64,000 bases of DNA from Halorubrum aethiopicum. GTDB lineage: Archaea > Halobacteriota > Halobacteria > Halobacteriales > Haloferacaceae. Shown one piece after another: positions 507-29,453 of this stretch. Positions within the stretch are counted from its first letter, which is position 1, and each line of letters begins with the position of its first letter. The stretch covers positions 1,054,001-1,118,000 of the forward strand of contig NZ_LOAJ01000001.1 of NCBI RefSeq assembly GCF_001542905.1, read 5' to 3'. Both the position numbers and the translations under genes were made by a program. Below the pieces are notes generated by a model. The model worked only from the letters and a program-made list of their open reading frames with translations, was not told the origin of the DNA and ran no database searches.

Positions 507-2765
507 ATGGCCACGGACGACGCCGTATCCCGGCTGGTCGAGGCGCTCACGCTCGAGGAGGCGGGTCGACTCGTCTCCGGCACGACGGACCCGGCCGGCC
601 GCGCGACGGGCTACCTCGGTGGAGTCGACCGGCTCGAGGTTCCTCCGTTGACCCTGGTCGACGGGCCGCTCGGGGTCCGGATCCCGGGCGAGTCGGCGAC
701 CGCCTTTCCCGCCCCGATCGCGCTGGCCGCGACCTTCGACGCCGACCTGGCCCGCGAACACGGGGCCGCGCTCGGCCGCGAGACGAGGGCGGCCGGGGCC
801 GACGCCCTGCTCGCGCCGGGGACGAACCTGATCCGGGTCCCGCAGGGCGGGCGGAACTTCGAGTACTTCGCGGAGGACCCCGTGCTGTCGGCCGCGACCG
901 CCGCGGGCGTCGTCGAGGGGATCGAGTCCGCGGACGTGATCGCGACGCCGAAACACTACGTCGCGAACTCCCAGGAGACGGACCGCGCGACGGTCAGCGC
1001 CGAGATCGGCGAGCGCGCGCTCCGCGAGCTGTACCTCCCGTCGTTCCGCGCCGCGGTCGCGGCCGGTGCCGGATCGGTGATGTCGGCGTACAACCGCGTG
1101 AACGGGACCCGGATGAGCGACCACCGCCGACTGCTGACGGACGTGTTGAAGGAGGAGTGGGGGTTCGACGGCTACGTCGTCTCCGACTGGTACGGCACCG
1201 AGGGCGCGGTCGACGCCGCGGCCGCCGGTCTCGACGTCGAGATGCCGGGCGTCCCGATGGGAGACGAGGCGGACGGGGCGGACGAGCCCGGAGACGACGG
1301 CGACGACGTGGAGGCCGGCGACGACGGGACCGACGGGGCCGACGGAGACGACCCCGCCGACCCGCTCCCGCCCGAGATCGCCCGCGGGATGCCCGACCCG
1401 GAGACGTGCGAGCCGTTCGACGAGGCGCTCCCCGCCGCGGTCAGGGACGGGTCGCTCCCGCGGGAGCGGCTCGACGACATGGCGGCGCGCGTCCTCCGGA
1501 CGATGGACCGGGTCGGCCTGCTGGACGGGGACCGAGCCCCCGCTGACGTCGACGCCGACGCCCACCGCCGGCTGACGTTTCGGGTGGCGACGCGGGGGTC
1601 GGTCCTCCTGGAGAACGACGGCGTCCTCCCGCTTCCGGCCGACGCCGACGTCGCGCTCGTCGGTCCCGCGGTCGACGAGGCGGTCCTCGGCGGGGGCGGC
1701 TCCTCGGAGACGACGCCGGAGACGACCACGACGCCGCGGGAGGGCCTCGAGGCGCGCGCGGACGGAACCGTGACCGTCGCGCCCGGTCACCCGCCGGTCG
1801 AGGGGATCTCGATGTTCGACTTCCTGGGCGGTGACGACGTCGGCGGCGACGGCGGCGACGGGGAGAACGAACCCGGCGAGAAGGAGACGCGCGAATCGGA
1901 CGACTCCGCGGACGACCCCGCGACCGACGACGCCGCGGACCTCGACGCGGCGGTCGCGGCCGCCGAGGTCGCGGACGTCGCCGTCGTCGTCGTCCGCGAC
2001 GCCACCACGGAGGCGCTCGACCGGGACGGGATCGGGTTCCCCGACCGCCAGGACGAACTGGTCGAGGCGGTCGCCGCGGCCGCCGACCGGACCGTCGTCG
2101 CGGTCGCCGCGAGCGGCCCGGTCGAGCTCCCGTGGCACGACGCGGTCGACGCGGTCCTCCTCAACTGGTACCCCGGACAGGTCCACGGCGACGCGCTCGC
2201 CGCGCTGTTGTACGGCGATGCCGATCCGGGGGGCCGGCTCCCGGTCACGTTCGCGCCGGAGTCCGCGTACCCGACGGCCGACCGCCGGCGCTTCCCCGGC
2301 GTCGACGGGCGCGTCAGCCACGACGAGGGTGTCCTCGTCGGCTACCGCTGGTTCGACGCCCGCGACCCCGATCCGACCTACCCGTTCGGTCACGGCCGCT
2401 CGTACGCGGCGTTCGAGTACCGCGACGCCGCTCTCGACGTCGACGAGGAAGGCGAGGAAGTGGGTGACGTCGCCGTCACGGTCACGGTCGAGAACGTCGC
2501 CGACCGCGACGGGCGCGAGGTGGTCCAGACGTACGTGCGGCCGCCGCGCGTCGCGGGCGTCGACCGCCCCGTCCGCGAGTTCGCCGGGGCGGAGAGCGTC
2601 GCCGTCGCCGCCGGCGGGACCGAGACGGTCACGATCCGCCTCGACGACCTCGCGTTCTCCCGGTACGACCCCGAGGCGGGGTGGACCGTCGATCCCGGCG
2701 AGTACGTCGTCGAGGTCGGTCGCTCCGCGCGGGACGCCCGGATCGAACTGACGGTGGAGCGGTGA
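507..2765 (+). CDS. Glycoside hydrolase family 3 beta-glucosidase
   Basis: The protein has 752 residues. The N-terminal (beta/alpha)8 domain shows the GH3 signatures GPLGVRIPG, the KHYVANSQE block and GYVVSDW, whose Asp (about residue 227) is the catalytic nucleophile of the family. A second alpha/beta domain follows (GSVLLENDGVLPL, then NWYPGQVHGDALAALLYGD), and the C-terminus is a fibronectin-III-like domain with PFGHGRSYAAFEY. This is the full domain set of secreted or cytoplasmic beta-glucosidases/beta-xylosidases. No signal peptide is visible, so action on imported oligosaccharides inside the cell is inferred. Two acidic Asp/Gly-rich insertions (about residues 253-280 and 442-472) are halophilic additions. 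The ATG at 507 is chosen because homology to the GH3 fold begins shortly after it. Confidence 0.9.
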   Translation: MATDDAVSRLVEALTLEEAGRLVSGTTDPAGRATGYLGGVDRLEVPPLTLVDGPLGVRIPGESATAFPAPIALAATFDADLAREHGAALGRETRAAGADALLAPGTNLIRVPQGGRNFEYFAEDPVLSAATAAGVVEGIESADVIATPKHYVANSQETDRATVSAEIGERALRELYLPSFRAAVAAGAGSVMSAYNRVNGTRMSDHRRLLTDVLKEEWGFDGYVVSDWYGTEGAVDAAAAGLDVEMPGVPMGDEADGADEPGDDGDDVEAGDDGTDGADGDDPADPLPPEIARGMPDPETCEPFDEALPAAVRDGSLPRERLDDMAARVLRTMDRVGLLDGDRAPADVDADAHRRLTFRVATRGSVLLENDGVLPLPADADVALVGPAVDEAVLGGGGSSETTPETTTTPREGLEARADGTVTVAPGHPPVEGISMFDFLGGDDVGGDGGDGENEPGEKETRESDDSADDPATDDAADLDAAVAAAEVADVAVVVVRDATTEALDRDGIGFPDRQDELVEAVAAAADRTVVAVAASGPVELPWHDAVDAVLLNWYPGQVHGDALAALLYGDADPGGRLPVTFAPESAYPTADRRRFPGVDGRVSHDEGVLVGYRWFDARDPDPTYPFGHGRSYAAFEYRDAALDVDEEGEEVGDVAVTVTVENVADRDGREVVQTYVRPPRVAGVDRPVREFAGAESVAVAAGGTETVTIRLDDLAFSRYDPEAGWTVDPGEYVVEVGRSARDARIELTVER

Positions 2766-2847
2766 CTCTCGAGGCACGATCCGCCCCTCTCCCCGACCCG
2801 TCGAGCGAAACGTGCGTTTATCCCCGATGCCGCCCCACGGACCGGTA

Positions 2848-4269
2848 ATGGCAGCCGCCGACATCCCCGTTCCCGCGCTCGGCGATCGGGCCCGCGCCTG
2901 CGCCCGTCGCCTGCGCGAGGCCGACCGCGTCCTGCTCGCCTCACACATCGACGCCGACGGGCTCACGAGCGCCGCCGTCGCGTCGGCGGCGCTCGCGCGG
3001 GCGGGGATCGACCACGAGGTCGTCTTCGAGAAGCAGCTCGACGCCGAGTCGATAGCGGGGATCGCCGCCCGCGGGTTCGAGGTGGTCTGCTTCACCGACT
3101 TCGGCTCCGGCCAGATCGACGTCATCGCCGACCACGAGGCCCGCGGCGACTTCGTTCCCGTGATCGCCGACCACCACCAGCCCGCCGACGCCGACACGAC
3201 GTTCCACCTCAATCCCCTGCTCGAGGGGATCGACGGGGCGAGCGAGCTCTCGGGGGCGGGCGCGAGCTACCTCCTCGCCCGCGCGCTCGAGGGGCCCGAC
3301 GGCGACAACCGCGACCTCGCGGCGCTGGCGGTCGTCGGCGCGGTCGGCGACATGCAGAACGGCGACGGCGGGCTCGTCGGCGCGAACGAGGCGATCGTCG
3401 CGGACGGCGTCGACGCGGGCGTCCTCGAGGAGCGCACCGACCTCGACCTGTACGGCCGACAGACCCGGCCGCTCCCCAAACTGCTGGAGTACGCCTCCGA
3501 CGTACGGATTCCGGGGATCTCCAACGACGAGGCGGGCGCGATCGGCTTCCTTCGGGACCTCGACGTCGACGCGCGACGCGACGGCGAGTGGCGGCGCTGG
3601 GTCGACCTCGACGACGCGGAGCGGCGGACGCTCGTCTCCGCGCTGATACGGCGCGCCGTCGCCTCCGGCGTTCCCGCGGACCGGATCGAGCGGCTCGTCG
3701 GCACCTCCTACACGCTGCTCGACGAGGAGTCGGGAACCGAACTGCGGGACGTCAGCGAGTTCTCGACGCTGCTCAACGCGACCGCGCGATACGAGCGCGC
3801 GGACGTGGGGCTGGCGGTGTGTCTCGGCGACCGCGACGCCGCGCTCGCGGAGGCGCGACGGCTGCTCCGGAACCACAGGCGGAACCTCTCGGAGGGGCTC
3901 CAGTGGGTGAAATCCGAGGGCGTGACCCACGAGGAGCACCTCCAGTGGTTCGACGCCGGCTCGCGGATCCGCGAGACGATCGTCGGGATCGTCGCGGGCA
4001 TGGCCGCCGGTTCGCCGGCCGTCGACCGTTCGAAGCCCGTGATCGCGTTCGCGGAGAAGAACGCGGAGGAGCTGAAGGTCTCCTCGCGCGGGACCGGACG
4101 GCTGGTTCGGCGGGGGCTCGACCTCTCGGCCGTGATGCGGGAGGCGAGCCGGTCCGTGGGCGGCGACGGCGGCGGCCACGACGTCGCCGCCGGCGCGACG
4201 ATCCCGAGCGGCGAACGCGACGCGTTCCTCGCGTCGGCGGACGCGCTGGTCGGGGATCAGCTCTCGTAA
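2848..4269 (+). CDS. DHH-family phosphoesterase, RecJ-like single-strand exonuclease
   Basis: The protein has 473 residues. It contains the DHH-family motifs SHIDADG (motif I), CFTDFGSGQ and the signature DHHQP, which coordinate the catalytic Mn2+ ions. A DHHA1-type C-terminal domain follows, ending in a GGDGGGHDVAAGA segment typical of this domain. Haloarchaeal proteins of this type are annotated as RecJ-like single-strand DNA or RNA exonucleases; a role in replication and repair is inferred from family. The ATG at 2848 (MAAADIP) is preferred to the in-frame ATG at 2827 because the intervening residues are not family-like. It stands 82 bases after the beta-glucosidase and probably has its own promoter (TTTAT at about 2817). 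Confidence 0.85.
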   Translation: MAAADIPVPALGDRARACARRLREADRVLLASHIDADGLTSAAVASAALARAGIDHEVVFEKQLDAESIAGIAARGFEVVCFTDFGSGQIDVIADHEARGDFVPVIADHHQPADADTTFHLNPLLEGIDGASELSGAGASYLLARALEGPDGDNRDLAALAVVGAVGDMQNGDGGLVGANEAIVADGVDAGVLEERTDLDLYGRQTRPLPKLLEYASDVRIPGISNDEAGAIGFLRDLDVDARRDGEWRRWVDLDDAERRTLVSALIRRAVASGVPADRIERLVGTSYTLLDEESGTELRDVSEFSTLLNATARYERADVGLAVCLGDRDAALAEARRLLRNHRRNLSEGLQWVKSEGVTHEEHLQWFDAGSRIRETIVGIVAGMAAGSPAVDRSKPVIAFAEKNAEELKVSSRGTGRLVRRGLDLSAVMREASRSVGGDGGGHDVAAGATIPSGERDAFLASADALVGDQLS

Positions 4270-14237: not shown

Positions 14238-14600
14238 CAAAGCCCCAGCCGTGAGGACTCGCGCGGCTCGTTGTCGTTCGAGACGGCTTCGCCGTCTCGT
14301 GATGACGAGAGAGCGAAGCTCTCTCGAACCACGGTCCTCGCTCAGTCGCTATCGCTCCTTCGCTGCGGTGCTTCCTTCGCCGTGCTTCGTCCTCACGGCA
14401 GCGAGGCGCTACGCGCCTCTGGAAGCCGGCGGCGTTGCCGCCGGCGACTGCCCCTTTGAGTCCCACCCAACCGCTCCGCACAGCACCTCACGCCTCCCCA
14501 GCCTCGTCGGCCGCCCTCCGCTTCGCTTCGGCCGGCCGACTCCCTCGCGTTCCGGTCGCGGGCCTTCGGCTCACTCCCGGGCGCAGGGCGAGAGCGAAGC
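14238..14600 (+). repeat. Structured intergenic repeat element, long form (possible non-coding RNA)
   Basis: The 478-base gap after 14188 holds no convincing gene but shares blocks with 29186-29345. Shared are CAAAGCCCCAGCCG, TGCCCCTTTGAGTCCCACCC, CCGCACAGC, CCTCCCCAGCCTCG and GCGGGCCTTCGGC. CAAAG (14238-14242) can pair with CTTTG (14454-14458). Inside this loop GCCGTGAGGAC (14249-14259) pairs with GTCCTCACGGC (14389-14399), and several short perfect hairpins are seen (GACGGC-TTC-GCCGTC, GAGAGC-GAA-GCTCTC, CCGGCGGC-GTT-GCCGCCGG). The conserved ends and paired but unrelated interior suggest an RNA structure or a mobile non-coding repeat. A TATA-like CTATTCTAA lies at 14213. Confidence 0.65.
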
Positions 14601-14666
14601 TCTCGCGTGAAGCCGGCGCGCAGCGCCGGCGACGCCAACCGCACCGCGTATCTATCTCGTCTTGAA

Positions 14667-28989: not shown

Positions 28990-29185
28990 TCGGGGAGGCG
29001 AGCGCTCCTTCGTTCGCGACGAACCGACCGATTTCCGCGGATCTCGCGGATCGGTTCACGAGACGTTCGTTCCGGAAGGCCGTTCAGTGGATCATCCACT
29101 AGGGTCGAAGTGCTTATAGAACGGGTATTTCATCGGTGATCGAGGTGACGAAAAAGAGATCGTTGCCGGGGCGGTGAACTCTTTC

Positions 29186-29345
29186 AAAGCCCCAGCCGTC
29201 TTCCCGGAGACGGCTGCCCCTTTGAGTCCCACCCCGCACAGCCCCGCACCTCATACCTCCCCAGCCTCGCGGTTCGCGCTCTCCGAGCGCTCACCGCGTC
29301 CCTCGCGGGCGGTTCGCGGGCCTTCGGCCCGCTCACCGGCGCGCC
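29186..29345 (+). repeat. Structured intergenic repeat element, short form (possible non-coding RNA)
   Basis: This is the second copy of the element at 14238-14600, same orientation. CAAAG (29186-29190) pairs with CTTTG (29221-29225), then CCCC faces GCCC, then AGCCGTCT (29195-29202) pairs perfectly with AGACGGCT (29209-29216) around TCCCGG. Downstream are the shared blocks GAGTCCCACCC, CGCACAGC, CCTCCCCAGCCTCG, and a hairpin GCGGGCC-TTC-GGCCCGC. CTTATAG at 29113 could be a TATA box starting a transcript near 29140. The gap 28990-29453 holds no convincing gene. Compared with the long form, about 180 bases inside the hairpin are missing. Confidence 0.65.
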
Positions 29346-29453
29346 ACCGCGATCGCTCGTTTCTTCATCTGTACTGAGTGATCCACCGTGATTCCAGGGG
29401 ACGTATAACGTGGTCCGTTGCTCTCGCCCCCGGTACCTTCTCATACTGCCCCT

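Follow-up and report, generated by a model that had tools for sequence, protein, structure and literature searches.

Palindrome-associated transposable elements (PATEs) were described in Haloquadratum walsbyi, where 177–194 copies per genome occur (PMC3119063). They are non-coding, palindromic and heterogeneous in sequence, are too short for a transposase and host smaller mobile repeats; they have no inverted ends, and their terminal sequence ties them to IS605-type transposons (PMC3119063). From the same genus short, non-coding SMR-A repeats are described, which have been inserted predominantly into a single class of non-coding elements, carry terminal inverted repeats and show high identity between copies (PMC3119063). 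In bacteria, REP/REPIN sequences with their RAYT transposases represent high-copy intergenic palindromic repeats (PMC2817692, PMC3116915).

Within the window, i.e., the whole 64,000-nucleotide stretch of Halorubrum aethiopicum DNA that was analyzed, an initial annotation had drawn attention to one pair of structured intergenic copies. Based on the present analysis these are two of about 105 copies of a folded non-coding repeat which is apparently undescribed. The folded dispersed element is real and widespread across haloarchaea, measures about 150–450 bp and contains palindromes; like PATEs, it is multi-copy and too short for a transposase gene. Rfam 15 returned no match at gathering scores, and none at E ≤ 1 for one copy of the window and one taken from a different genus. 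A literature search, mostly of journals outside subscription, found no description of the element either, so that within this scope the statement that no described family has this pattern stood.

Anatomy of the element and its two copies in the window

The core TGCCCCTTTGAGTCCCACCC was found with up to three mismatches at 105 places of the 3.3-Mb genome, 47 of them in forward and 58 in reverse orientation, and the reversed core pattern, which served as control, had no match in it. For the comparison 96 stretches around copies were taken from the genome and 101 copies were read. All 101 copies listed (of 105) are located on the main contig and none of them on the two small contigs. The closest pair is 95.4% identical and most are 85–90% identical.

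In the orientation of the initial annotation the element reads CCAAAGCCCCAGYCG, hairpin 1, TGCCCCTTTGAGTCCCACCC, a short linker, CCTCACGCCTCCCCAGCCTCG, hairpin 2, TCCCTCGCG, hairpin 3 and GGCGCGCCACCGC. Extensions to the left and right are optional, being present in many copies and missing in others. In addition to the three hairpins of each copy, many show weak basal pairing between the ends; in the MFE fold of the minus strand of copy 2, GAUCG and neighboring bases of both optional flanks are paired, and this pairing is absent in some copies.

Copy 1 was delimited by eye from the blocks and the end motif to positions 14238–14642 (minus strand) and is matched by the covariance model R1 at 14451–14595 (minus, 75 bits, E = 3.9e-14). 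Copy 2 comprises positions 29185–29350 (minus strand) with optional flanks beginning at ~29157 and reaching to ~29385, and its R1 match extends over 29217–29350 (minus, 121.8 bits, E = 1e-23). The four ordered blocks which had been reported as shared were confirmed, with CAAAG at 14238 and 29185, TGCCCCTTTGAGTCCCACCC at 14449 and 29215, and CCTCCCCAGCCTCG at 14493 and 29256; in copy 1 the latter block covers 14493–14506 and reads CGAGGCTGGGGAGG on the minus strand. Other parts of the initial description required revision. The right limits had been set too short, as hairpins 2 and 3 and the conserved GCGCCACCGC end reach ~14642 and ~29350, respectively, and instead of two length forms there is a continuum of hairpin-1 sizes, the distance from CCAAAG to the core ranging from 24 to 263 bases over the copies (most commonly 96–112). 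With 31 bases the 29185 copy is unusually short, and the 212 bases of the 14238 copy are due to nested cassettes.

Hairpin 1 of copy 1 (14238–14458, minus) is composed of the outer CAAAG/CTTTG pairs, a CCC/CCC internal loop (GGG/GGG on the minus strand) and a long interior. It is followed by hairpin 2 (14507–14540, minus) in a 34-nt form without a TC/TC loop and by hairpin 3 (14550–14581, minus). In copy 2, the short form of hairpin 1 (29185–29224, minus; CCAAAG-to-core distance 31 nt) precedes hairpin 2 (29270–29298, minus) and hairpin 3 (29308–29339, minus), both with a TC/TC internal loop, which is GA/GA on the minus strand.

Three double-hairpin cassettes are nested in copy 1. Two are located in hairpin 1, one with the linker TGATGA at 14279–14326 (strand not assigned) and one (GAGGCGCTACGCGCCTC ... 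GCCGGCGGCGTTGCCGCCGGC) at 14399–14448, whose first arm of 7 bp lies under the cut-off of our scan and which was recognized from the sequence; the third is situated past hairpin 3 at 14588–14630 (strand not assigned). Scanning for hairpins with arms of at least 8 and loops of 3–5 revealed a tenfold higher density inside element copies than outside (2.46 vs. 0.25 per kb). All 21 double-hairpin cassettes, defined as two such hairpins 2–9 nt apart, lay inside copies, which make up 5% of the scanned sequence. The cassettes consist of two perfect hairpins with varying stems and a linker of 4–6 nt, and hairpin-1 interiors gain and lose them freely. For the triplets of the loops both orientations are found (TTC/GAA, TCC/GGA, GTT/AAC), which amounts to an inversion at the DNA level. 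Comparable small and mobile double-hairpin elements are said to have been described by Paquin et al. in 2000 from the mitochondrial DNA of Allomyces; these are organellar, and we know of no confinement to one host element such as that of the cassettes.

Covariation and the structured strand

Covariation was analyzed with 255 distinct Halorubrum copies in comparison with shuffles, which account neither for relatedness nor for DNA hairpin correction. Stem letters change on both sides while the base pairs are kept: pair 2 of hairpin 2 is Watson-Crick in 88 of 94 cases (44 GC, 24 CG, 20 TA; shuffle mean 34, maximum 47) and pair 4 of hairpin 3 in 81 of 81 (shuffle mean 35, maximum 49). For 46 copies of the own genome RNAalifold gave 25 pairs, 11 of them with double-sided changes. 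This strong covariation supports the selected secondary structure that had been proposed initially, and the compensatory changes anticipated for haloarchaeal genomes were thereby found above shuffles, relatedness being unaccounted for. The closing stem, too, differs between genera by paired changes (GAAAG/CTTTC 36, CAAAG/CTTTG 5, GGAAG/CTTCC 4; n = 50). The impression that conserved ends enclose unrelated yet paired interiors holds true even across families, where a second hairpin-1 interior, unrelated in sequence, occupies the same frame in other genera.

The internal loops are conserved together with the pairs. The mismatched CCC/CCC loop is present in 155–156 of 159 unique hairpin-1 stems, and TC/TC was found in 94 of 112 hairpins 2 and 81 of 169 hairpins 3 of the tested lengths. 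Since palindrome correction at the DNA level is expected to erase such mismatches, it is unlikely to account alone for loops that are nearly fixed.

Plus and minus strand of each window copy are more stably folded than shuffles (z −3.7 to −4.3), so that folding energy cannot tell which strand is structured. On the strand considered by the initial annotation A.C exceeds G.T, with 95:52 in unique hairpin-1 stems (94:33 without the last position, 21), 9:7 in hairpin 2 and 11:5 in hairpin 3, as would be expected if the other strand tolerates G.U pairs. Moreover, TC/TC on the plus strand corresponds to GA/GA on the minus strand, and the polarity of the hairpin-1 interior is fixed (249 forward and 5 inverted, partial motif matches counted), whereas the triplets at the tips occur freely in both directions. 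All three features, i.e., the wobble pairs, the GA/GA loops and the polarity of hairpin 1, are thus suggestive of the minus strand, opposite to the one initially favored, as the likelier structured strand at both window sites; mutational strand bias may be another source of this signal. The five Halorubrum copies whose interior was scored as inverted (among them L408:1029) have an unchanged frame, and two of the five were scored by both motifs.

Distribution, placement and turnover of the copies

With up to three mismatches the core was detected in 51 of 52 Halorubrum genomes in 1–193 copies, several genomes having one copy and one genome none. Core variants are species-specific, and the core in its Halorubrum form hardly occurs outside this genus. 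A covariance model of the right half yielded matches outside Halorubrum, in 26 genomes from ten genera of the same family; these scored 33–53 bits and were accepted because the best background match in the window reached 14 bits and the sequences share the blocks. A strict two-block pattern was found in 87 of 392 genomes of the order, spread over 29 of 95 sampled genera, with no control matches. On 52 haloarchaeal plasmids, matches were found to relatives of a copy that stems from a different genus. Copy 2 had no match among phages and plasmids, and viral matches reached a 14-mer only, so that viral carriage of this Halorubrum copy was not found. A viral scan with the zinc-ribbon neighbor protein gave nothing.

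On six haloarchaeal plasmids (e.g., L399:1585-2445 and 2446-3110) a hairpin-1-like unit was observed downstream of a well conserved non-coding stretch of ~480 nt. Both adjoin a gene encoding an OB-fold, RPA-like 'DNA-binding protein' of 285–299 aa. This is possibly a large non-coding RNA or a plasmid control region of its own.

In the own genome, 100 of 101 copies could be assigned to a position between two predicted genes. The two window copies, which had been thought to replace coding sequence, are intergenic and lie between convergent genes (DUF7500/zinc-ribbon for copy 1, M48 peptidase/alpha-amylase for copy 2). Convergent gene pairs are over-represented, flanking 40 of 100 copies in comparison with 102 of 450 adjacent pairs, and the left neighbor gene points toward the element in 68 of 100 copies. 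Among 686 flanking proteins no recurrent gene family was detected; hence nothing marks the element as the regulator of one gene, and an autonomous partner adjoining the copies was rejected. A recurrent transposase beside the copies was not seen, and a TnpB partner was dismissed, as the genome has only four TnpB-type genes, none of them near any copy.

Relatives were compared at three orthologous sites, and at these the element is present in some and absent in others. At site 1 it was found in its own orientation in five near relatives and three farther ones, and in the opposite orientation in a further one (L238). In one of the farther loci (L239) the gene match and the element are both on the minus strand of the locus; the two thus have the same orientation, and an inverted insertion is not present there. 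At site 3 a relative with a 98% identical neighboring gene has lost hairpin 1 cleanly. Neither a target-site duplication nor a clean empty site was found at these sites, the empty sites differing by more than the element. Site polymorphism suggests gain and loss together and hence mobility, without proving insertion, and ancestral presence followed by many losses could alternatively explain why distant clades have the element at the same convergent sites.

Further sequences were noticed around the copies. In several other Halorubrum species (five loci) copies are flanked on both sides by TTTATAAG-like sequences resembling archaeal TATA boxes. A second dispersed repeat (GAGCATCCGCGAGCGAAGCGAGCGGTTCACCGACGG...TTTTTCCCTCCAGGTTTTTCGAGGAG) follows in the right flanks of five copies, and a tandem unit of 51–57 bp with TCGTTGCTGGCGCGGTGAACACCTCCAAAGCCCCAGTCGCTCGGCTGTACG occurs to the left of six full copies.

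Interpretation and relation to known systems

We interpret the element as a non-autonomous, dispersed and probably mobile repeat whose folded strand is recognized by a trans-acting factor, a reading to which we assign a probability of slightly under one half (about 0.48). One strand, the minus strand at the window sites, would fold into three hairpins, and weak basal pairing of the ends would close many copies. Most likely, a trans-acting factor would recognize this folded strand, as RNA or single-stranded DNA, during copying of the element into further intergenic places. The base pairs, the fixed GGG/GGG loop of hairpin 1 and the fixed GA/GA loops of hairpins 2 and 3 would be maintained by selection for this recognition, the stem sequences being free to drift; small double-hairpin cassettes would be taken up by hairpin tips and interiors. 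In favor of this reading are the copies in both orientations, the presence in 51 of 52 congeners with species-specific core variants, the polymorphic sites, the intergenic placement, the covariation with its fixed loops, the lack of a recurrent neighboring gene family and the confinement of cassettes to the element. The missing target-site duplication, the lack of an identified mobilizing enzyme, end pairing that is not universal, possible ancestral presence with repeated loss (one relative having lost hairpin 1 at one site) and copies at best 95.4% identical, i.e., no recent burst, count against it. We infer gain beyond loss at the polymorphic sites, use of the minus strand and recognition of the fold by a protein or enzyme.

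A more far-reaching version is tentative, and we would rather bet against it: the mobile repeat could encode an undescribed class of structured RNA in many Halobacteriales genera, whose fold as RNA or single-stranded DNA would promote the copying of the repeat itself; its hairpin-1 domains would be exchangeable, and it would have a class of double-hairpin parasites of its own.

It is rather improbable that the minus strand of many loci provides the host with one or more structured non-coding RNAs which bind a protein or RNAs, the copies having risen by duplication and gene conversion. Such RNAs would fit the complex, conserved purine-rich motifs GACGYAAGCACCGCAG / GAGGAGCRCAGCGAG inside hairpin 1 of most other genera examined, the wide distribution in the order, the fixed interior polarity and the A.C excess of 94:33, which is G.U on the minus strand. 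However, they are difficult to reconcile with presence and absence at orthologous sites and with Halorubrum genomes that have no or a single copy. Moreover, no constant promoter adjoining the element was visible by eye, there is no constant neighbor gene, and interiors gain and lose cassettes freely.

Unlikely, and the least probable of these readings, is an element at gene ends that acts on the DNA or on transcript ends, i.e., a terminator or insulator that separates convergent genes or a binding place of chromosome proteins, with pairs kept by DNA-level hairpin correction instead of an RNA function. The frequent position between convergent genes, the orientation of the left neighbors, the inverted loop triplets and the two small contigs without copies among the 101 listed are in line with it, but correction of imperfect palindromes should have erased the TC/TC and CCC/CCC mismatches, the fold is more complex than a terminator needs, and selection against hitting promoters can also lead to placement at gene ends. 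A coding function was rejected because hairpin lengths vary freely, the CRISPR-repeat likeness of GGGACTGAAAG because the compensatory change from CAAAG/CTTTG to GAAAG/CTTTC shows that pairing matters, and box C/D motifs in the flanks (TGATGA left, CTGA right) because the flanks are missing in some copies and the box is not conserved.

High-copy folded repeats with such covariation seem undescribed in haloarchaea, and a recurrent partner gene is not visible. The element opens to testing how a non-coding element spreads through an archaeal order and which factor reads the fold under molar KCl, and raises the question why the insertion of small double hairpins is restricted to it. RNA-seq and genome annotation of haloarchaea are affected too, since its stretches are left unannotated or yield spurious small ORFs.

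Among known systems, REP/REPIN sequences resemble the element as high-copy intergenic palindromic repeats; they are single or paired short palindromes that lack its three-hairpin body and nested cassettes (PMC2817692, PMC3116915). The PATEs and SMR-A repeats of Haloquadratum are the nearest published precedent (PMC3119063). The element is not filed as a PATE because its ends are unsettled and a link to IS605, looked for in TnpB-type genes near copies, was not found. Judged by the published description of PATEs, it may differ in the weak inverted end pairing of many copies, differs in a multi-hairpin core conserved over many genera, and shares with them the non-coding, palindromic, high-copy and heterogeneous character as well as the smaller repeats it hosts. 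The latter resemble SMR-A in being short and non-coding and in being concentrated in a single class of non-coding element, but they are built from two perfect hairpins with varying stems, whereas SMR-A copies have terminal inverted repeats and are highly identical.
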